Below, piece by piece: positions 9,707 through 24,526 of a DNA stretch of 64,000 nucleotides (position 1 is the stretch's first letter; each line of letters starts with the position of its first letter). The position numbers and the translations under genes were made by a program. The notes beneath the pieces were generated by a model. It was not told the DNA's origin, searched no databases, and saw nothing but the letters and a program-made list of their open reading frames with translations. The stretch spans positions 404,136 to 468,135 of the forward strand of contig JAUHZK010000001.1 of the NCBI GenBank assembly GCA_030425645.1, in the 5' to 3' direction. The DNA comes from Gammaproteobacteria bacterium. Lineage in GTDB: Bacteria > Pseudomonadota > Gammaproteobacteria > JAPPPA01.

Positions 9707-9715
9707 CAAAACCTT

Positions 9716-9741
9716 GGGACAGACCCAAATGGGTCTGTCCC
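9716..9741. repeat. Palindrome GGGACAGACCC-AAAT-GGGTCTGTCCC (RAYT-associated repeat, copy 1)
   Basis: 11-bp perfect inverted repeat flanking the RAYT gene; AAAT loop, i.e. inverted orientation relative to copy 2. Confidence 0.9.
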
Positions 9742-9749
9742 ATTTGCTG

Positions 9750-10355
9750 TTAACAGCTTGCACATCTATCTAAACGTTCTGCGATATGTAGCTTGGTAAC
9801 TTCATCAATGGGCTTGTCGCAGAATAGCTTGCGGTAATGGTTGGTCCGCGCTTTGGCGTTTGCGCCTAAAGCCAAATATTCATCATGGGCGGTGATTAAT
9901 GGATTGGAAGCGCCTAAGGCGTTGTGCTGGTAGCTGCTCCATTGATATTGCCCTGGTTGTTCCGTTAGCTGAGCTCGCACTGGGTTTAGTTCGATGTAGC
10001 GATAACAGATTAGTAGATAGCGCTGGGTTTCTATTAATGAAGACTTATAGCGACCTTCCCACAAAGTACCGCTACGTTTGTAGCGCCCGTTAAAGTACTG
10101 GGTATAACGCTGGCCTAGTCTTTTCATAAACAAACCGGCGGCGGTGTCTTCGGTAGGGGTGATTAGTAAATGGATATGGTTTCCCATTAATACGTAAGCG
10201 TGAAGCAAAACTGCTGTCTCTTCTAAGCAATCCGCTACTCGCTTGAGGTAGGCAAATCTATCTTGGTCATCGTGGAAGCAACATTGTTTGTTGTTGCCTC
10301 GCTGCATCACGTGCAACGGCCACCCTGCGGGCGCTACTCTAGCGATTCTAGGCAT
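9750..10355 (-). CDS. REP-associated tyrosine transposase (Y1/IS200-like HUH, RAYT family)
   Basis: MPRIARVAPAGWPLHVMQRGNNKQ, HAYVLMGNHIHLLITP (HUH motif), YLLICYRYIELNPVRA (catalytic Tyr region). Confidence 0.93.
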   Translation of the reverse strand: MPRIARVAPAGWPLHVMQRGNNKQCCFHDDQDRFAYLKRVADCLEETAVLLHAYVLMGNHIHLLITPTEDTAAGLFMKRLGQRYTQYFNGRYKRSGTLWEGRYKSSLIETQRYLLICYRYIELNPVRAQLTEQPGQYQWSSYQHNALGASNPLITAHDEYLALGANAKARTNHYRKLFCDKPIDEVTKLHIAERLDRCASC

Positions 10356-10380
10356 CGAAGATCTATACCAGACCCCAAAT

Positions 10381-10406
10381 GGGACAGACCCATTTGGGTC
10401 TGTCCC
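10381..10406. repeat. Palindrome GGGACAGACCC-ATTT-GGGTCTGTCCC (RAYT-associated repeat, copy 2)
   Basis: Perfect 11-bp inverted repeat just upstream of the RAYT start. Confidence 0.9.
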
Positions 10407-10421
10407 AAGATGGTTTAGTCT

Positions 10422-10760
10422 TTATAGCCTTTTTTTCTTCAACTCGTGATCAAGTGGAACAGTCACTTCCACTTGCTGTCTGAAGCCGTCGATAGTTTTT
10501 TGTCCAATGCCTTTGATTGCGGCAAGGTCATCGGCGCTACTGAAATAGCCGTGGGCTTCGCGATGACGAACAATGGCGGCAGCTTTTTTCTCGCCAATAC
10601 CAGCTAACTCGGTGAGCTCTTCTGCGGTTGCCGTGTTGATATTAACGCTGTGGTCATCTGCTAAGGCAGCGCCAGTTAGGCCCATGACTAATGCTAGGGC
10701 GATTATTAGGTTGCGAAAAATATACATTCTTGATGTCTCCTTAGATGCTTTTTCGAGCAA
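10422..10760 (-). CDS. ComEA-like helix-hairpin-helix DNA-binding protein with N-terminal signal peptide
   Basis: NLIIALALVMGLTGAALA signal, then SVNINTATAEELTELAGIGEKKAAAIVRHREAHGYFSSADDLAAIKGIGQKTID. Confidence 0.9.
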   Translation of the reverse strand: MLEKASKETSRMYIFRNLIIALALVMGLTGAALADDHSVNINTATAEELTELAGIGEKKAAAIVRHREAHGYFSSADDLAAIKGIGQKTIDGFRQQVEVTVPLDHELKKKRL

Positions 10761-10844: not shown

Positions 10845-10870
10845 GGGGCAGTCCCATTTGGGTCTGTCCC
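10845..10870. repeat. Degenerate copy of the RAYT-associated palindrome (GGGGCAGTCCC-ATTT-GGGTCTGTCCC)
   Basis: Right arm identical to copies 1 and 2, left arm diverged; lies upstream of rpoH. Confidence 0.75.
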
Positions 10871-10894
10871 AGTACGGGTGAACTTTTTGGGTTT

Positions 10895-10921
10895 TTAGCA
10901 CTCTGTACATGGGAGTGCTAA
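10895..10921. promoter_or_regulatory. CIRCE element (HrcA operator) upstream of rpoH
   Basis: TTAGCACTC-tgtacatgg-GAGTGCTAA: exact match to the TTAGCACTC-N9-GAGTGCTAA consensus, 22 bp before the rpoH ATG. Confidence 0.9.
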
Positions 10922-10943
10922 ATATGCTATAAAAGTACCCGTT

Positions 10944-11807
10944 ATGAATGACTTAGTCCTACAAGGTAATCGCGCCCTAGCTATGCCGTTAACAGCGGCG
11001 AGCCTAGATGGTTATATCCATGCGGTTAATCAGTTGCCAATGCTTTCTCAACAAGAGGAGCAAGACTTGGCGCGTGCTTGGTTGGAAGAAGAGAACACAC
11101 TTGCTGCGCAAAAGCTTGTATTAAGCCATTTGCGCTTTGTGGTTCATATTGCTCGTAGCTACTCAGGTTACGGCTTGCAGCTTGCTGATCTTATTCAAGA
11201 AGGCAATGTTGGTTTGATGAAAGCAGTAAAGCGCTTCGATCCTGATAAAGAGGTTCGTTTGGTCAGCTTTGCCGTGCATTGGATTAAAGCCGAAATTCAC
11301 GAATACGTAATTAAAAACTGGCGTTTAGTTAAGGTGGCTACCACCAAGGCGCAACGGAAGCTGTTTTTTAACCTACGTAAGGCGAAAAAAGGCCTTAACT
11401 GGCTTACAGCTGATGAAACTCAAGCTGTCGCTGATGATCTTGGCGTTAAAGTGGCTGAAGTCCAAGAGATGGAAAAGCGTTTATACAGCCATGATGTGGC
11501 TGTGGATTTATCTCCGGATGAATCTGATGAAGATGCTTGGAAAGCGCCGGCGGCTTACTTAGAGGCTCCTGACTCTGACCCTTCAGTGTTGGTTGAAGAG
11601 GCTGAGTGGTCGCAACAATCTCAAAGTCGTTTGATGTCTGCCCTGCAAACCTTGGACGAGCGTAGCCGTGGCATTATTCAGTCACGCTGGATGGTTGAAA
11701 GCAAAGCAACTTTGCATGACCTAGCGGCTGAATATGGTGTGTCTGCTGAGCGTATTCGTCAGATTGAGGCGCAGGCCATGAAAAAGCTGCGCCAAGCTAT
11801 TGCTTAG
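10944..11807 (+). CDS. rpoH: RNA polymerase heat-shock sigma factor sigma-32
   Basis: QRKLFFNLRKAKKGL RpoH box, DLIQEGNVGLMKAVKRFDP, ERIRQIEAQAMKKLR. Confidence 0.97.
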   Translation: MNDLVLQGNRALAMPLTAASLDGYIHAVNQLPMLSQQEEQDLARAWLEEENTLAAQKLVLSHLRFVVHIARSYSGYGLQLADLIQEGNVGLMKAVKRFDPDKEVRLVSFAVHWIKAEIHEYVIKNWRLVKVATTKAQRKLFFNLRKAKKGLNWLTADETQAVADDLGVKVAEVQEMEKRLYSHDVAVDLSPDESDEDAWKAPAAYLEAPDSDPSVLVEEAEWSQQSQSRLMSALQTLDERSRGIIQSRWMVESKATLHDLAAEYGVSAERIRQIEAQAMKKLRQAIA

Positions 11808-12516: not shown

Positions 12517-13287
12517 GTGGCGGTAGGTGAAAAAATGACAATAAAGGTGCCGCATGTGCGCCTGGCTTCGTGTTCAGCAAAACCGTTGGGCGCGACGCCT
12601 GACGTATATGCAAAACAAGCAGCTATATTATCGCCATTACAGTGTTTTGCTGTTGGCGGTATGCCTGACAAAAAAACGCCGCTTGCCTGTATCGTTCTGG
12701 CTGCGTTGGTGTTTTGCCGTGCGTTGAGTGGTGCTCTAGTGGGAGTGCTGGTCTCGTGGAAGGCAAACTCTTTTCTCGGTCGCCGTGGTGGGCGGCTAAT
12801 TCTTGCTCTTGCCTGTGTGTTTGGTGCTTGGGGTGCGCAAGCCACCCAGTTGCAGGCTGCGGTTGTGGGGGTTAACTCTCAGTTTCTTCATTCGGATGCT
12901 GCTTCGGCTGAGCTGTCGCAGTGTGATGTGGATGTCTCGGTTGCGTCCGAGTCTTCCGGCGTATCAGTGACACCGGTTATCGATCAATGCGTTAGCGGCG
13001 TTTTGCCCGTGTTTGGTTTTAGTGTTAATCATTCTCGGCCGCACTTTTTAAAAGTTGAGCGGGCCGGTTTGTTGTACGGCACCACTGCTGGGCCGCCTGT
13101 CCGGCAGCAACTCGCTAGTAGTCAATATTTATCAGCCGCCAATCAAGCGGCTTTCGGCGTCTTTGCTATGCCGCCGCAGAACTCTAATTTAAAAACTCAG
13201 AAGCAGAATTATCAGGCTAAGGCGTCAGTGTCTTGGCCTTTTTTGTTGCTGGGTTTGACTCGGGAGGTGGCAAGTGCTGCCTGCTAA
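12517..13287 (+). CDS. Hypothetical protein with hydrophobic segments, upstream of and overlapping the giant frame (start uncertain; ATG at 12535 or 12661 possible)
   Basis: Open frame of 256 codons with RRGGRLILALACVFGAWGAQATQ hydrophobic stretch; ends 14 bp inside the giant ORF. Confidence 0.45.
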   Translation: MAVGEKMTIKVPHVRLASCSAKPLGATPDVYAKQAAILSPLQCFAVGGMPDKKTPLACIVLAALVFCRALSGALVGVLVSWKANSFLGRRGGRLILALACVFGAWGAQATQLQAAVVGVNSQFLHSDAASAELSQCDVDVSVASESSGVSVTPVIDQCVSGVLPVFGFSVNHSRPHFLKVERAGLLYGTTAGPPVRQQLASSQYLSAANQAAFGVFAMPPQNSNLKTQKQNYQAKASVSWPFLLLGLTREVASAAC

Positions 13288-16200
13288 ACAATCTAAAAAG
13301 ATCGCTAAAGCGATTGCCTGTAAGCCTGTAGAGGAAAGCCAAATGGCTAATTCAACACAAAGTACCCGCCGCCGTTCTGTTGCTCGTTTATCGAGAAACC
13401 GGAATGCCCTAATGCTTATGCAGAAGGTGTTGGCACTCTTTGCAGTTCACTCTAAACAGGAGAAACAAATCAACGGGGTTCAACCTGCTTCGACTGGCCC
13501 GGCGCGTCACCGGGAGGGTGGGGTATTGCGTAAGTTCGCAGGCTTCATCATGATCGTTGCTAGCCCAGCGAAGTACCTGCTCATGCGTGCTTCACGCACT
13601 CCGGTTGCTACCCTGGACGGGATTCAGGGCAAGAAACTTGCGTCCAAAAACAACGCCCCTGTAGGAGCGATTTGCAATCGCGATGAGCGGTCCTTTGGCT
13701 ATTCAGCAATGGGGAATCCAAAGCGTGGCTTAAGAACTATGGCCTCTTTGAATCTGGCTTTATTGTTATTGGGTGTGCTCAGTATGCAAGCTGCTAATGC
13801 TGCGAACCCGATTGCGGGTGATGACACAATTGTTGGTGCTCCTGGTGAGACGGTGCGTTTCTTATTGGCGCACAATGACTCTGATCCGGATAATCATGTA
13901 TTAAGTACATATGCATTATCGGGTTGTGCTGGTGCAGTTGCGGATCCTATTGACGTGCATCGCTATTCGCCAACTGGTTCTTTAAACAGCGTGGCAACCA
14001 GTGTTTATTCATTTACTCTGCCGGCCACCGCTGGTACTACAAGTTGTAGCTACACCGTAACAGACTCGAACGGTGAGTCGGATACAGCAACCATTACATT
14101 GGTTGCAACCAATCAGGTGCCAACGGCTGTGCCGGTTGCAAATATTTCCAGCAGTAACTTGGGTACGTCTTATGGGTTGGGTTATAACAGTTACCCCAAA
14201 GTGTCAGAGGGTGTAAATGCTTTTACAACGACCGGCTCTACATTAACAAAAGATTTCGAAGATACGTTGTGGGGTGCGCCGTTGTCTGCGGATCCGAATG
14301 GCCAGGTTGCGTTTATGCATCCTGTATACCATGGGCAGTTTCGCGCAGAAATTACTGGGTTGACCCCAGGGCAGCTATATGAAGCAACGATATATGTGCG
14401 GTACTTGGATGACGCTTGGCGTTCTGGTGACGGTGTAAGCACGCGTAACTGTAGTTATATCGGTGCATTGGCTGAGGGTAATATGTATACCACCTCCTCC
14501 TATACGGAAGGAGGCCCTTGGGTGCCGCTGTCATTGAAATTTATTGCGCCTGGTACGTCGGCTCATATTGGCCGTTGGGGCCGTTCGAACACGCTAAATC
14601 ATTGTATGAACCATGCGGCATATTCGTTTGGTACTAACCAGCCAATGACAGCGGATGACTTTACAATTACTGCGTTGCCGGGTTCTCAGGTTAATAAAGA
14701 TATATTTGGTGATGGCCATGTTGCGGATGCGGATGGTGATCCACGTTGGGAGGTCAGTAACTTCACGTGTTCGGCAGGTATGACGGTGCCGACCGCTGCG
14801 GGCGTCGGGTCTGGAACTTGGGACCGCGTAACTGAATCGGGAACGCATTATGTCTTTGATATTCCTTCGACCCCCGGTACATATACCTGTACCTATACGG
14901 CAAGAGATTTTGGTGCAGAAACAAGCACGGCCACAGGCACAATCACTATTCAATCGCAACTACTAAGTTGTGAGGTTGATCATACGGGTGATGATTCGGG
15001 CCAGGCTTGTTCTTCAGCTGCTGGTGATTGTTCGCTCCGTTCTGCAATTGAGGTTTTAAATGCGGGCAATTGTTCAAATCACACAGTTACCTTTAATATT
15101 CCTGGTGGTGGCGTTCAAACGATTAGTCCTGCGGCTGGTTTTGCGATTACACAGCAGGGCGCGGTTATCGATGCGGAAACGCAACCTGGTTCTACCTGTG
15201 GCGGCGCTCAAGCTGACTTGTCTGATCGTGTAATTAATGTAGAAATTGACGCAGGTAATGCGAGTATATTGTTTGATGTTAAAGCCGATGCCACCATTCA
15301 TGGTTTTGCGATTCACGATGGCACAACGGCTGCCATTCAAGTAAGCGATGCGCAAGCCGATGCCATTGTCACCTGTAACTACATAGGCTTAAAAGCCGAT
15401 GGCACCACTGAGCCAGCAGACTCAGAGCCAAGCTATGGCATCGTGATTGCACAGGCAAGATCCGCCAGAATTGGTGGTGACACCTACAACGATGCCAACG
15501 TCATACTAGGCCATACTCAGGCATTGACCACTCAGCACCCTCCGTCTTCTATCGTTGATTTAGACATTCGAGGCAACCGATTCTCAACCGACAGAACTGG
15601 TGAAGTCAGATTACGTCGAGTAGTGCCGGGTAACTTACCCGATGTCAGTATTGCAACAGTAAGCGGTACATTACAGCTTGGTGGAGCGACCGCGCCAGAG
15701 AAAAACGTATTCGGAGCAAGGGTAGCGCTTGGTGTAGGTTCAACAGCATTTGAAAATGCCAACATTGTCATCGAAGGCAACAACTTTAATGTTGGATTGG
15801 CGGGCACAGCGTCATTAGGCCACCATAGCTGGAGCCTAAAAACGTATTTACCGGCTGCTGGTACGACATTACGAATTGGTGGCGATAGCGTTGGTCAACG
15901 TAACATATTTGGTGGTGATGGCACGGCAACAGAAACCACACCAATACAAATAAGTAACTCAGGTACCGGTGCTACAACTGAGTTTACAAATAACTACGTA
16001 GGTGTGGATGTCACCGGTAACTCGCCGCTTCCTGTAGCAGGCAATGGCTTGGGCTTGCAAGGCGCGCATAACACAACAGTGAAAAACAATGTGTTTGGTA
16101 ATGCTGCGCAATCAGCCGTTTACACCATGGCTCAAAGCGACAATTTAACCTTTACGGGTAACAGAGTTGGTATCGGTGCAGATGATGTAACCGTTATGGG

Positions 16201-16939
16201 TAACGGTGAACATGGTTTACATTTAAGTGCAGCTATAGGCGTAACTGTTGGTGATGGTACGGTTGCGGGTAGAAATATAATTGTTGGCAATACCGATGTA
16301 GGTATCCGCGGTGTAAATCTTGATAATGCAGTAATCGATAATAACTACATTGGTATCAAAGCCGACGGTACTACACCGGCTGGAAATGGTGGGGTTGGTA
16401 TATCGTTATTCCATCTTTCTCAAAGTGTAGCAATCCTAGGTAATAAGATTTCTAGTAACGGCGATTTAGGTATTGACCTAAGTATGGAAGGTGTGACTGC
16501 CAACGATGCTGGAGATACGGATCATGAAGGGCAAAGCCCGGCACGTGCTAACAACGGTATTAACTACCCAGTGATAGACACAGCTGCACCAAATGGTGCA
16601 AATATCGATATCCAGTTTGATCTGGATATCAATGACGGCACTCACCCGGCATATCGTATTGAGTTCTTCTTAAACGATGCTGACACAACTGGTGCAATTG
16701 ATGCTAGCGGTCACGGCGAAGGTGAAATATTCCTAGGCAGCACAGTGGTCACCGGCGATGTAACCGACCAGCAAGTAAGCTTTGCTGGTCCTGCAGGCTT
16801 TAACACTAGCGACTTTGTCAGTGCCACAGCTACCGCTTGTGATAACGCAACATGTACCAGTACATTTAAAGAAACCTCTGAGTTTAGTGGGGCTAAACAA
16901 ATAGATAATGGACCAGAAATATCTGGTCGTGTATTCTAA
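13274..16939 (+). CDS. Giant surface protein, N-terminal segment (1221 codons): signal-like region, Ig-like domain, CSLREA-type domain, right-handed beta-helix; terminated by in-frame TAA
   Basis: Hydrophobic MASLNLALLLLGVLSMQAANA; GDCSLRSAIEVLNAGNC; beta-helix repeats (VIDNNYIGIKADGTTPAGNGGVGI). Likely start ATG 13343 with SD GAGGAA at 13331-13336. Confidence 0.85.
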   Translation: MLPAKQSKKIAKAIACKPVEESQMANSTQSTRRRSVARLSRNRNALMLMQKVLALFAVHSKQEKQINGVQPASTGPARHREGGVLRKFAGFIMIVASPAKYLLMRASRTPVATLDGIQGKKLASKNNAPVGAICNRDERSFGYSAMGNPKRGLRTMASLNLALLLLGVLSMQAANAANPIAGDDTIVGAPGETVRFLLAHNDSDPDNHVLSTYALSGCAGAVADPIDVHRYSPTGSLNSVATSVYSFTLPATAGTTSCSYTVTDSNGESDTATITLVATNQVPTAVPVANISSSNLGTSYGLGYNSYPKVSEGVNAFTTTGSTLTKDFEDTLWGAPLSADPNGQVAFMHPVYHGQFRAEITGLTPGQLYEATIYVRYLDDAWRSGDGVSTRNCSYIGALAEGNMYTTSSYTEGGPWVPLSLKFIAPGTSAHIGRWGRSNTLNHCMNHAAYSFGTNQPMTADDFTITALPGSQVNKDIFGDGHVADADGDPRWEVSNFTCSAGMTVPTAAGVGSGTWDRVTESGTHYVFDIPSTPGTYTCTYTARDFGAETSTATGTITIQSQLLSCEVDHTGDDSGQACSSAAGDCSLRSAIEVLNAGNCSNHTVTFNIPGGGVQTISPAAGFAITQQGAVIDAETQPGSTCGGAQADLSDRVINVEIDAGNASILFDVKADATIHGFAIHDGTTAAIQVSDAQADAIVTCNYIGLKADGTTEPADSEPSYGIVIAQARSARIGGDTYNDANVILGHTQALTTQHPPSSIVDLDIRGNRFSTDRTGEVRLRRVVPGNLPDVSIATVSGTLQLGGATAPEKNVFGARVALGVGSTAFENANIVIEGNNFNVGLAGTASLGHHSWSLKTYLPAAGTTLRIGGDSVGQRNIFGGDGTATETTPIQISNSGTGATTEFTNNYVGVDVTGNSPLPVAGNGLGLQGAHNTTVKNNVFGNAAQSAVYTMAQSDNLTFTGNRVGIGADDVTVMGNGEHGLHLSAAIGVTVGDGTVAGRNIIVGNTDVGIRGVNLDNAVIDNNYIGIKADGTTPAGNGGVGISLFHLSQSVAILGNKISSNGDLGIDLSMEGVTANDAGDTDHEGQSPARANNGINYPVIDTAAPNGANIDIQFDLDINDGTHPAYRIEFFLNDADTTGAIDASGHGEGEIFLGSTVVTGDVTDQQVSFAGPAGFNTSDFVSATATACDNATCTSTFKETSEFSGAKQIDNGPEISGRVF
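13660..13686. repeat. REP-like palindrome TGTAGGAGCGATTTGCAATCGCGATGAG
   Basis: GCGATT-TGC-AATCGC perfect inverted repeat preceded by GTAGGA, the layout of Pseudomonas-type REP sequences. Confidence 0.7.
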
Positions 16940-16993: not shown

Positions 16994-19900
16994 GTGAAAC
17001 AAGGTGTAACCGTTCGTTTGTTCAATGCGGGCGGAACACAAATCGACACCACAACCACGGCAGCGGATGGTACTTACGGCTTTGACTTGCCAACGGGTGC
17101 GGCTAACTACTTTGTAAGCGTGGACTCAACCGGTGTAACGCCAGAAGCAGGCGGTAGCGGCGTAGCTGAACAAACCTACGGTCCAATCGGTGCGCGTTGT
17201 GCTGATGGTGCTGGTGGTATGGTTGTTCGCGGTGCGCTAGATGGCGCGGGTGCTTGCTACGGTGGTGACGACGGTGCAACTGCGGATAACCCGGGTACAA
17301 CACTAGCTAATAACGAGCACGTAGCCACCATTACTTACGATGGCAGTACCGCTCAAGCAGATGTGGACTTTGGCTTTAGCTTTAATGTGGTGACGAACAC
17401 CGTCTCTGCCAATCAGCAGGGCACATTCGAACGCTTCATCAACAACGCCAACTCGGTCAATGGTCCCAATATGATGCGTTTTGTGCCCACAGTGCCTACT
17501 AACGCTACCGTTAGCGGTGCAACCGGGCAAACCTGCGCCAGCAATGGCGGAAACACCTGGTGGCAAATCGTCATGCGTCCGTCGGGACCGATTGCAACAA
17601 CCACCGGCACTACAGTTGATGGCGCTGCCTACAATCTCATCGATGGTGTATCCGCTTGTAACACCAACCAGGGTCAGTTCGGTACGGGTGGAATTGTTGG
17701 TGTCGGGCCGGATGGCATTGCCGGTACCGGCGATGAAACCGTGCTCGCCCAATTCGACCGCCTTGAGCTAGAACTGGACAAGGCCGACGAAGGTTCCGGC
17801 GGCACCTCCTCAAACCTCAGTACCGCAGGTATCTTTACCGTGCGCAATATCGCCATGATGAACAATGGCGGTGCAGAAACCAATGCAGTGCGGCGCGCAG
17901 GTCGTGGTGACTTTGTCGTTGAAAACAACATCATTGGTGCTCGTGCTGACGGTACCCAACCGATCGCCGCGAATGAGATTTCGCGTGGCGTAAGAATCGA
18001 CGCCGTTTCGGGTGCAGACACCAGCACCATTCGCAACAACTTCTTCGGTTACTGCCGTGAACCGGCTATCGATGTTTTTGATACCGACGACACCATCACC
18101 AACATCACCGGTAATGAAATCGTCAGTTGTGCCATGCGCATACTTCAATACGATGCCGTTGAAACCAATGGCGTCATGCTGATTGATGGTAACCGCATTG
18201 CCGATTCCGGCTTCAGTGGGTCAGGAGACGTTGCTGGTGGTGCGGGCATTGAACTGGGCAGTGCAAACCCGGGGCCGGGTAGTAGTGGGACTGTAAGCAA
18301 CAACACGATTACTGGCAGCCATAACTCTGGCATTACCGCCCATGCTGACGGCGATAACTTTACGATTTCGCAAAACCTTATTACCGGCAACGGTGTGACC
18401 TTTGCCCACGGCGGCATTCGCATCCGCTCCGCAGGTGCAACCAACAACCGCATTACAAAGAACAGCTTCTTCGCCAACAACGGCCTGGGCATTGACCTTT
18501 CGGACGGTTCTAGCACCACTAATGGCGTAAACCCGAACAACGGCACCAAGTCCGTCGGCTCGCTTTCGAACGACGGCATGGACTACCCCGTCATCACCAG
18601 CGCCATCGTTAGCGGCAACAGCCTGCAAGTGCAAGGCTACGTCGGCAGCGCTGCCGGGCAGGCCACCTTTGCCAACAGCACCCTGGAATTCTTCGTCGCC
18701 AATGACGACGGCAACCAGAACGGCGCCACCACTACCACCAGTGGCGACAACGTGCCGCACGGCGAAGGCCAGACCTTCATCGACAGCTGCACCAGCGACG
18801 CAGGCAACGGCAACTTCAACTGCACACTCACCATCCCCGCCGGCGTCACCGTCACCGCCGGCAGCACCGCCATCACCGGCACCGCCACCGACACCAGCAA
18901 CAACACCTCGGAGTTTGGCTCGAACTTTACCCCCACGGGTGCCGTGATTCCTGCGCCGTTGGTTGATACCGATGGTGATGGCGTGGATGATGTCGTTGAC
19001 CTTGATGACGACAACGACGGTATCAACGACATCGTTGAAAACGCAGAACGCGTTGTTGTTGCCGTCTTTAGTCCGGGCTCGCCTTACCCTTGGCCTGGTG
19101 AGACAAGTTCAACATTCACAGTTGCTCATAACGGGAGTACGACAAGCTCGGGTACATTAGCTGCAGGCTTTTCATTTGACGAGCAATACACGAATCTGGA
19201 GGCTGCTGAGCCTTACAGGCTGATTTCGGATGTGTCTGGTGCGCCGATGACGGCGACCTATACATTTAATGCGCCAGTTCCGGCAAATGAAATTGTGTTC
19301 TGTGTAACTAGTCTGGGTTCGGGTGATAGTGCTAATTTCAGCATTACTTCCGGAGCTGCAGACACGGGTGACTTTGTGGGTGGTACATTCCATACGGCAG
19401 CCGAAGCAGCTTATGATCGCAATACCGGTTCGATTACCAGTCCGGGTAGCAACAGTAATTCTTGTTTGTTTGGTGTTTCGGATGATTTGGTTGGCCAAAT
19501 CACAGTGTCAGGAGATGGCACCGGCACCGCGAGCGGTTATGGTTTCATACTGGCTTCGCTGCTCCCGTTCGATCTAGATGGTGATGGCAAAACGAACGCA
19601 CGTGATATCGACGCTGACGGGGACGGTATCCCCGACAACATTGAGGCTCAGGCTACTGGCGGTTATACCGCGCCAGCAAATAGCTACAATGGCAACGGGC
19701 AAGACACCGCCTACGGAGCGGCGGGTCTGGCGCCAGTCAACACCGGCGGCGCAACCGACCCGGATTATCTCGACACCAACAGCGACGGCGACGACCGTAA
19801 CGATGTAATCGAAGGTCACGACCTAAATGGTGATGGCAACATAGTTGGGCCAGCTGAGCGTAGCGCCACCGGATTTGACGCCGATACCGATGGTCTGGAT

Positions 19901-22900
19901 GACGGTTACGACAATGTTAACGGCTTTAATTTGGCATTTAACGCCAACAACGGCAATGGTAATCAGCCAAGCAGCTACCCAGATGCACGCGTATCTGGCG
20001 GCGAGCCAGACTGGCGTGATGATCGTGACCCTAATATCGCGGTACCTGAAACTCTGCCAGATACCGACAATGACGGTGTTGATGATCACCTGGATGTGGA
20101 CGATGACAACGACGGTATTGCCGATTTAACTGAAAATGGCGGCGGCGCTACTATCGTTTCTCCGGGAACGGCGGCTTGGCCGGGTGCTACTAATACCAAC
20201 GTTACGTTGTCTGGTAACACCAGTGTTGTGCATGCTGGGTTCTTTAATGTAACGGGGCAGTACAGCATTCCGGCGCCCGGTAATGGCCAGTGTTACCAGA
20301 AACCTGGTGGTGTGCACGCTGAACGCTTTACAGAGCTCGTCACCGGCCTAGACTTTGTTACACCAGTGCCTGCAAATGAAATTGGTGTGTTGGTAACTGG
20401 CGTTGGTAACAATGGCCCTGTAACTGCGCAACTAAGCTTTAATGGTGGTACAGCGGATGCCGGCGACTTTGTTGCCGCATCTGAGTCTGCAGGCCCAGAT
20501 ATCGCGTACGACCGAACCAATGGCACGTTAACACCACCTATTGGTGCAAATGACCCGGGTGCGTCTATCGCGCTACTAGGTGTAAGTGATGACACGGTTG
20601 ACCAAATCACCGTAAGTTTTGCCAACTCAATTGATGTCGACGGCTACGTGGTTTGCTTCTTTGGTATTAGCTCTCCAGATACAGATGGTGATGGTCTTGT
20701 AAACGAGCGTGATATCGACGCTGATAACGACGGCATTCCGGATCTATTTGAGGCTCAACCCGCCGGCACCGTTAACTTTACCTTGCCTAATGGCGTGGAT
20801 AACGACAACGATGGTATGGACTCTGCCTTTGATACTGATGACAACAATGTGGCGTCAGTCGGTGGGTTAGCTCCAACCAATACTGATTCACAAGATACTG
20901 CCGATTACATTGATCAGGATTCTGATAACGACGGCGTGCCAGACAACGTGGAAGGCCATGACGCCGACCGTAATGGTGTGGCGGACGAAGCGCCGCTGGC
21001 CAATATCGCCGTTATTACCGACAGCGATGGCGACGGTATGGATGACCGTTATGACGACGTTGACTTAAACAACACCGCTAACCCTGAAACCAACCCAGGC
21101 AACGACCGTGACAATACTGGTGAGCCTGAGGTTCAGGACACCGACGGTGACGGCACGCGTGACTGGCGTGATACCGACGATGATGAAGACGGTGTGCTAA
21201 CCACGGCCGAGCCGCCTCCAACAGATAGCAATAGTGATGGCGTTCCGGATTACTTGGATCCGCTAAACGGAACTCCACCTAGTAACGGAAGCTGCAACGT
21301 TAATGCTTGGTCATTAATGACCGGTTTTGGTGGCCAAAACCCATTCACCAATGCTGATGGTGTTCGCATTCAGGTGGTCGGGGGAACGCTAGCCGCCGGT
21401 GGTGTGTCTGGCGCAACAGGATTTTGGCAGTTCAATGCGGGTGCAACATTACCGCCTGCACAGGGCGTAGGCTTAACGTACGCCGAATCTCCCAATGTAT
21501 TGACGTACGACATTACCTGGCCGGTGTTGCAGAACCCCGAAGATGCCATTGTCGCGGCTACCAACGTATTTGGTAACCCCGATAACAACGCGTCTAGTGT
21601 GCAGTTCTTGTTCTATGACGAGAATAATCAACAAATTGCTGGCACGTTCTACAGCCGTTATCGTGATCGCGCAGTGAATCAACCGCTGGCAACCGTCAGT
21701 GGTAGCTTTATGTTTGGTGCTACTGCGAATGGCCGCGATAGTTCCTTTATGGCTTTCCGCCCGGCTGTAACGTCAGGATACGTAGGTATTAGTCGGGCTA
21801 GGTTGATCTTCCGTCCGGCTAACAATGCGACGGGCTCAACCGATCACGTGGGCATGTACGTGATGCAGCCATGTACCGATACTGATGGTGACACCATCCC
21901 GGATATCAACGATCCGGATGACGATAACGATGGTATTCCAGATACCGTTGAAGGCAGTGGCGCGGTTGATACCGACGGCGACGGTGTAGCTGATTCGCTA
22001 GATTTGGATTCTGATAACGACGGCATTAACGACGTTGATGAAGCGGGTCATGATCCTGCCAATGTGGATACCGACCGTGATGGCATGACCGACGGCGTAG
22101 ACGCTGACGGAAATGGCATGATCGACACGCCACAAAACAGCCCGGTGAATACTGATGGCCGTGGCCCTGCTGACTGGCGTGATCTAGATAGCGATGACGA
22201 CAGTATTTCTGACCTAATTGAGGGTGGTTCTAGTTGTACAGACAACTTGAACAACCACGACGGTTCCGACGCAACTGCTAACGGTGGCGACGGTGTTTGT
22301 GACGAAGCCGACCAGGATGGCGACGGTATTCAAGATACCGCTGACGACCTAAATGGCTTTGGTGAAACTGCGAATCCACAACCGACTAATACTGGTCCTG
22401 TGGTTAATGACGCACCTGACTTCCAAAACGTGACCTCAGACGGCACTAACGACGACATTGATGGCACTACCGCGAGTCCTCAAGACGCTAACAATGATGG
22501 TGTGCTAGACGACACTACAGATCCCGATGGCGACGGTATTGTTCTGGCTGCGCCGGACGGCCTACCTAGCGAATTTGGTGGTTTGTCTGCACCACAGCAA
22601 GTGCCGTTGGTTGGTGTGGCAAAAACGATTACCAATCCGACAAATGACAGCATTAACCCGTTTGCGCGTACGGTTACCATCTATCTAGAGAACTTCTCTG
22701 GCTTTACTGCCGCCGGCACCGCCTTTATGGTTGAAGATGACCTTGGTGCTATCGTAGCGCTAGCAAATGTAAATACTGTATCGGTCAGCAATCTGCAGGT
22801 AGTGGCGCAGAGCGCTGGCACTGTGATTGATCTGGCAGACGGTGGTGCAGATGACGGTGGCCAAGCTGGTGAGCCGGTCTACAACGGCATTAGTCAGGTT

Positions 22901-24526
22901 GATTTGTTAGATTCAACGGCGAGTAGCCGTACCAGTATCCCCGCTGGCGGCACGGCGACCATCAGCTTTGATATTTCAATTGACCTAATTAATTCGAATA
23001 CGCCGACCTTGTACTCAAACCAGGCTCGAGTTACAGATTCGGCAGGTGGTTTGATTGACCTGTCAGACGATGGCTCGGATCCTGATCCGAACGCAGATGG
23101 CAACCCGAATGAGGACGCTGGTACTCCGGTATGTCCGAGCTCGGAGGCAGCTGATGGTTGTGAGAACGACTCAAGCCGGGATGGAATCGGCGGCGCCGCG
23201 ACCGCATTCGATTGTGACGTTACGCAAGACGCATACATCATCCAGAATAACGTGCCTACTACGGGTCAAAGCCGCTTGATGCGCGTTAACACCAATACCG
23301 GCACTATGACGGCCGTTGGCACATACAACATCACTTTTGCATCGCTCGGTTACAACGCTACTGACGGTTTCTTGTACGGTTTGCGTACGGCGACAACTAG
23401 CAATGACCAGCGTGATGACCTGTATCGATTTACAAGTAGTGGCGGCCTAACCAAGCACGGCGATATTAGTGGCCTACCTACTGGTGTAGGCGCGTATGGC
23501 AGTGGTGAATTCAGTCCGGACGGTCAGTTCTTCTATACCTCGCGGCCAGCAAACCCGGATCGCGTATACGAAGTTGATTTCGCTACGTTGACGGTAACTA
23601 GAACTATTGGACTTAACGGTGTTACTGCAATACAAAATGACTTTGTATTTAACCCAGGTGATGGACAGTTTTATACCGCTGGTCGAGGTGACACTGGTAA
23701 TGCCAATGAGGTCTATCAAGTCAGTCTTCGTCCTGGTGCGACCAGTGGTGACGTTACGACATTCTCAACGACTGGAGACTTCAATAGTGGATCCATCTTT
23801 GCCGATGATCGATACGTTTATGCGGTTCGTCCTACCGAAACCGTTCGCGTAGAAATTGGCTCTTATGGTGGTGGAGACCGTGTCTCTAGCACTTGGAGTG
23901 CCAACGTATTAGCGCCAAATGGCGGTGATGGAGCTTCTTGCCCGCCGGTCGTTGTAGCGCCTACAGATTTCGGTACTTGTAACGCAGAGGATACGGCCTT
24001 TGTAGTGGATGACACTGCGCCGAGCACGATCTACGGTGCTGTTGTTCAGCAATTCGATACCTCGGCGTCGCCATTTAGCGCTGTGAATACAATTAACTCC
24101 GGTATTCGCCTCAACGGCATGGGGCACAACCCACAAGATAACTTGCTGTACGCTATGCGGCTTGATTCGTTAGACCACCGCAACTTTGTATATCGTGTAG
24201 GCGCAAATGGTCAGATAGAAGATCTTGGCCCCGTTTCTGGTTTGCCGGTTCAGGGCTATGCCAGCGGCGTATTTGATGCGGCAGGAACCATGTACGTTGC
24301 GTCCTCATCGGACCGCGACAACCTGTACGCAGTTAACCTCACTACTATGTCAGCCGCCACTATTGCGCTGACAGGCCGAACTATTGAGTTTGGCGATATG
24401 GTGTTCAATCCGCTTGACGGCCTGCTAACAATAGTTGGGCAGACCTCAGGTGGCGTTAACAAGATTGGCACAATTAATACAGCCACTGGTGCGGTGACAG
24501 AAAAAACGGTCACCGATCAACAGTAA
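16994..24526 (+). CDS. Giant surface protein, middle segment (frame continues from 16940): rest of SdrD_B-like domain, second beta-helix, TSP3-type repeats, beta domains, beta-propeller-like repeats; ends at a second in-frame TAA
   Basis: Same frame as 13274 and 24584 ORFs; [35 protein letters not shown]; repeated DTDGDGVxD motifs. The ORF-track start is a GTG inside a domain with no evident SD. Confidence 0.85.

Follow-up and report, generated by a model that had tools for sequence, protein, structure and literature searches.

A predicted sigma-E promoter overlapping the HrcA operator upstream of rpoH in a gammaproteobacterial genome and its relatives

The stretch of DNA analyzed here (hereafter, the window) comprises 64,000 nucleotides of a gammaproteobacterial genome. 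An open reading frame at positions 10944-11807 on the forward strand encodes the heat-shock sigma factor sigma-32 (RpoH, 287 aa); its product matches the TIGR02392 model (rpoH_proteo) with 395.5 bits, above the cut-off of 323.1. An RpoH search of the genome returned two other matches (30% and 29% identity), which resemble other sigma-70-family factors; a second, diverged rpoH paralogue was ruled out, and rpoH is present as a single copy.

Upstream, a gene for a comEA-like helix-hairpin-helix protein (10422-10760, reverse strand) lies between glmU and rpoH, together with a gene resembling those of REP-associated tyrosine transposases (9750-10355, reverse strand), which matches Y1_Tnp and falls below the cut-off of NF047646. 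Copies of a palindromic repeat with the core CCCATTTGGGTCTGTCCC lie on either side of the transposase-like gene (9715-9742 and 10380-10407); a third copy (10851-10871) ends about 8 nt short of the -35 element of rpoH described below, and the core occurs nine times in the genome at ≤1 mismatch. In the one congener, glmU is the direct neighbor of rpoH at a distance of about 85 bp, with neither the transposase-like nor the comEA-like gene in between. In the window, these genes and the palindromic repeats separate glmU from rpoH, yet the block containing the rpoH promoter elements and operator is still conserved. Elsewhere in the window, two adjacent, very long open reading frames of the surface-protein type occupy 13274-16939 (forward strand, 1221 aa; bacterial Ig domain and a weak beta-helix match) and 16994-24526 (forward strand, 2510 aa). 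The latter begins with GTG 54 nt past the end of the former, and the two may represent a single gene interrupted by a frame break.

The operator at 10895-10921 (forward strand) reads TTAGCACTC-TGTACATGG-GAGTGCTAA, and its 9-N9-9 palindrome, TTAGCACTC-N9-GAGTGCTAA, has 0 mismatches to the consensus of CIRCE, the HrcA operator. Its end lies 22 nt from the rpoH ATG at 10944, which confirms the perfect CIRCE that a preliminary description had placed directly upstream of rpoH; the site thus stands beside a heat-shock gene, as is characteristic of an HrcA/CIRCE regulon. No other match at ≤3 mismatches occurs in the window, and a chance origin was ruled out by shuffles, which gave 0 matches. We used pattern searches to scan the whole genome (2.75 Mb, 99.5% complete); at ≤3 mismatches, this analysis identified two CIRCE sites, the one at rpoH and one upstream of groES.

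The preliminary description had suggested looking for hrcA elsewhere in the genome and for the palindrome in close relatives, and both were found. An intact hrcA gene (PF01628, 220 bits, no internal stop) sits in an hrcA-grpE-dnaK-dnaJ cluster, and the rpoH palindrome is kept in the congener (L087) and across the class, the conservation that characterizes a regulon site. The genome scan at ≤3 mismatches found no CIRCE near hrcA or at its cluster, and autoregulation of hrcA via CIRCE was rejected on that ground. Because the two CIRCE sites of the genome precede groES and rpoH, the predicted HrcA regulon of this organism consists of groESL and rpoH. A sigma-32-like promoter (CTTGAAC-N12/13-CCCCT) lies directly before the groESL CIRCE, and sigma-32-like sites also occur upstream of grpE and dnaK. 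No sigma-32 promoter match at ≥10/12 was detected near rpoH, and sigma-32 autoregulation of rpoH was likewise rejected.

For a wider comparison, we cross-matched CIRCE positions (≤2 mismatches) with rpoH positions in a family sample of 37 genomes, made up of this genome, its congener and single representatives of 35 further families in the class. hrcA was found in 23 of the 37. Of the 22 hrcA-bearing genomes that have rpoH, 20 carry CIRCE a short way upstream of that gene, against 3 of the 13 without detected hrcA (Fisher p = 8e-5); two of these three are incomplete assemblies (62% and 86%), and the third (G017) has a same-genus relative (G166) that carries hrcA. Among 80 named loci, CIRCE is present at rpoH in Alcanivorax, Parahaliea, Sediminihaliea, Methylobacter, Plasticicumulans and several Woeseiaceae metagenome-assembled genomes (MAGs), and none was found at the rpoH loci of Pseudomonas, Halomonas, Kushneria, Cobetia, Salinicola, Marinobacter or Marinomonas. 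Given the 20/22 hrcA-bearing genomes and the named loci that carry it, CIRCE at rpoH is a common feature of Gammaproteobacteria that have hrcA and not a peculiarity of this genome. In most relatives, it lies about 20-50 nt from the rpoH start codon. Some loci vary in copy number: L106 (G011:C61:202567-202625) has a tandem CIRCE pair with 0 and 1 mismatch, separated by 5 nt, in front of rpoH, a Kangiellaceae MAG (L060) also has a second, weaker CIRCE, and one genome has two rpoH genes (G033:C289 and G033:C325), of which only one is preceded by CIRCE.

Sigma-E promoters have a GGAACTT-like -35 element and, after about 16 nt, a TCnnA-like -10 element. We aligned 67 distinct rpoH-CIRCE loci on the operator and compared them with 12 groES-CIRCE sites. 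Three features are conserved at the rpoH loci and absent from the groES sites: GGAACTT about 16 to 10 nt before CIRCE, TAA (or CAA or AAA) as the first three bases of the CIRCE spacer, and AAT next to the end of CIRCE. The three spacer bases, together with the final two nucleotides of the left CIRCE arm, make up a sigma-E-like -10 element, with TCTAA, TCCAA or TCAAA at this place in most relatives; GGAACTT and this element combined read GGAACTT-N16-TCTAA, the layout of a sigma-E promoter. A GAAC core occurs 14-17 nt before CIRCE at 49 of the 67 rpoH loci (shuffle mean 0.76, largest 5) and at 13 of 22 sites in the family sample (shuffle mean 0.28, largest 3), against 0/12 groES sites at the same offset and GAAC counts of only 0-3 in other four-base offset windows upstream of CIRCE. 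The elements are also coupled, with AA at -10 positions 4-5 in 37/49 sites that have the -35 element and 3/18 that lack it (p = 3e-5). Because the GAAC and coupling counts run over related sequences, p-values serve only as guides; the family sample agrees in direction.

Of 229 genomes in the class, 53 contain the composite pattern GAAC-N10-13-CIRCE, with one site each; a reversed control gave 0 matches in the same 229. Among 30 composite loci that were checked, 29 are rpoH and one is groES. Based on a table read by hand, hrcA is present in 51/53 composite genomes, compared with 163/229 overall (p = 6e-7); the two that lack it are G006 (62% complete) and G105 (85%), and it occurs in each of the 45 composite genomes with ≥90% completeness and ≤5% contamination. 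Some genomes belong to both this set and the family sample, so the composite scan is largely, not wholly, independent. The -35 element is absent at 9/22 family-sample CIRCE-rpoH sites, and therefore not every CIRCE-rpoH promoter is of the sigma-E type. Conversely, many rpoH genes without CIRCE retain a sigma-E-type promoter (e.g., L022, L036, L077 and L100), and in Gilvimarinus (L062) intact GGAACTT-N16-TCTAA-like elements lie over a CIRCE with 4 mismatches. This series would fit a history in which the sigma-E promoter was retained and the operator lost, the direction of change being conjecture.

In the window, the putative sigma-E -35 element is TGAACTT (10879-10885, forward strand), its GAAC at the offset shared with relatives, and the putative -10 element is TCTGT (10902-10906, forward strand), which takes its first two bases from the end of the left CIRCE arm and the other three from the spacer, at 16-nt spacing from the -35. 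Each element deviates once from the consensus, the -10 at its last base, which departs from A; we accepted this near-match as a sigma-E-type promoter, the agreement being strong in relatives. The corresponding elements of the congener read TGAACTA-N16-TCTGT, and the block from the -35 (GTGAACT) through CIRCE is kept between the two genomes, whereas the DNA upstream differs. The genome also encodes rpoE-rseA-rseC, with an RpoE match over the cut-off (TIGR02939, 265.6 bits) and RseA_N and RseC_MucC matches, and rpoE itself is closely preceded by a GAACTT-N17-TCTCA site. Genome-wide, GAAC-TT-N16-TCTRW has 7 matches, near the estimated chance number of about 5, and the pattern was rejected as proof from this genome alone; the case for sigma-E consequently rests on the relatives.

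A second, possible promoter of the housekeeping type consists of a weak -35 element, TGTACA, in the CIRCE spacer (10904-10909, forward strand; identical in the aligned congener) and a possible -10 element, TATAAA (10928-10933, forward strand; kept in the aligned congener). If used, TGTACA-N18-TATAAA might give a near-leaderless rpoH mRNA; the leader would be very short, and no Shine-Dalgarno sequence is evident. At rpoH loci, CIRCE is directly followed by AAT, with T at position 30 (counted from the CIRCE start) in 65/67 compared with 1/12 groES sites, and TTAGCA-N18-TAAAAT in relatives is perhaps a housekeeping promoter built from the CIRCE arms. The window departs from this pattern at 10922-10924 (positions 28-30), reading TAAATA rather than TAAAAT.

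We consider it likely, on the sequence evidence, that the HrcA operator is superimposed on the rpoH promoter and that HrcA represses sigma-E-driven, and probably also housekeeping, transcription of rpoH. HrcA activity depends on GroEL, as established in other bacteria. RNA polymerase carrying sigma-E, and probably the housekeeping holoenzyme too, would initiate rpoH transcription from elements in and around the palindrome, and HrcA bound to CIRCE would obstruct the sigma-E -10 region along with any start located within it or immediately downstream. Occupation of GroEL by unfolded protein would cause HrcA to be released, derepressing rpoH and groESL together. Sigma-32 would then drive transcription of groESL, grpE and dnaK, restoring GroEL and with it HrcA activity, a negative feedback. 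For the sigma-E promoter to drive rpoH at full output, envelope stress, which frees sigma-E of RseA, and relief from HrcA would both be required. We infer each of these steps at rpoH, namely HrcA binding, repression, sigma-E dependence and GroEL feedback. Since hrcA is present and the palindrome is kept both in the congener and class-wide, the best reading is HrcA control of rpoH, and in this the core interpretation of the preliminary description is very likely right. The linear cascade from HrcA to sigma-32 that it proposed is incomplete, since the operator sits on a sigma-E-type promoter like E. coli rpoH P3, making a two-input node, and HrcA is predicted to act on groESL directly beside the cascade. 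The recurrence of the compound switch in many gammaproteobacterial families apparently marks an old, widespread circuit and not an oddity of one genome.

A reading that keeps HrcA repression would make the promoter under CIRCE solely a housekeeping one in this genome, with the sigma-E-like motif as a remnant. The off-consensus -10 (TCTGT) points that way, as do TGTACA-N17/18-TATAAA, kept between the two congeners, and the TAAAAT-like hexamer located at the CIRCE end in relatives, whose T at position 30 is rare at groES. We nevertheless regard this as unlikely: the GTGAACT block persists in the congener although the DNA upstream has changed, the sigma-E motif is widespread, and a sigma-70 consensus scan called no promoter, TGTACA/TATAAA included.

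Two further readings deny the palindrome a role as an operator. The decayed CIRCE under the intact promoter of Gilvimarinus offers a precedent for a relic without regulatory function; here, however, all 18/18 operator bases are intact in both the window and the congener, hrcA is present, and CIRCE is rare in genomes without hrcA, which makes a relic very improbable. That the palindrome instead functions at the RNA level, as a hairpin in the leader of rpoH serving as a thermosensor or stability element, we find hardly credible. A transcript starting within or upstream of the palindrome would include part of it, and the usual distance of CIRCE from the start codon would suit such a role, but the letters of the HrcA consensus are strictly conserved beyond what pairing alone would demand, and the presence of CIRCE tracks that of hrcA. 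Moreover, the predicted starts fall inside or after the palindrome, so its left arm would usually be untranscribed.

HrcA/CIRCE regulons of beta-, gamma- and epsilon-proteobacteria were reportedly surveyed comparatively by Permina and Gelfand in 2003. For Geobacter sulfurreducens, a CIRCE at rpoH was predicted in 2004 at position -51 (PMC545781, Table 8). In the parts of that account consulted, this deltaproteobacterium resembles the genome studied here in having the exact CIRCE consensus just upstream of rpoH and a CIRCE at groESL, and it differs in having CIRCE also at hrcA-grpE-dnaK-dnaJ; those parts mention no sigma-E element beside the rpoH CIRCE (PMC545781). In open-licence literature, we found no description of a sigma-E promoter overlapping CIRCE at rpoH; the part that appears new here is the sigma-E/CIRCE composite and its class-wide recurrence, although its priority is uncertain. 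At groESL, in the same and related genomes, the operator and the repressor are the same as at rpoH, but the promoter (-35 CTTGAC or CTTGAAC) lies upstream of CIRCE, and 0/12 sites have a sigma-E -35 at the rpoH-type offset.

Most of what is taught about sigma-32 comes from E. coli, in which rpoH is transcribed from several promoters, its mRNA acts as a thermosensor and chaperones control the stability of its product. The E. coli rpoH P3 promoter is sigma-E-dependent, and rpoHP3-lacZ is a standard sigma-E reporter (PMC2215328). P3 (L155) reads TGAACTT-N16-TCTGA, compared with TGAACTT-N16-TCTGT in the window, where the -35 has the same letters. Unlike the window's promoter, P3 lies about 120 bp upstream of rpoH, and E. 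coli has no hrcA match in a control search and no CIRCE at rpoH (best candidate, 8 mismatches). We tentatively propose, at somewhat less than even confidence, that rpoH in Gammaproteobacteria has long had a compound sigma-E promoter with its -10 element built into the HrcA operator, that sigma-32 synthesis is thereby a node responding to two signals, folding stress in the envelope and in the cytoplasm, and that the enteric P3 is a remnant left after loss of HrcA and CIRCE. If true, many Gammaproteobacteria place HrcA over the sigma-E promoter of rpoH, so that GroEL status would set both the synthesis and the activity of sigma-32; this would caution against regarding HrcA and sigma-32 as alternative heat-shock systems, and the rpoH layout of E. 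coli would be a derived, simplified one.
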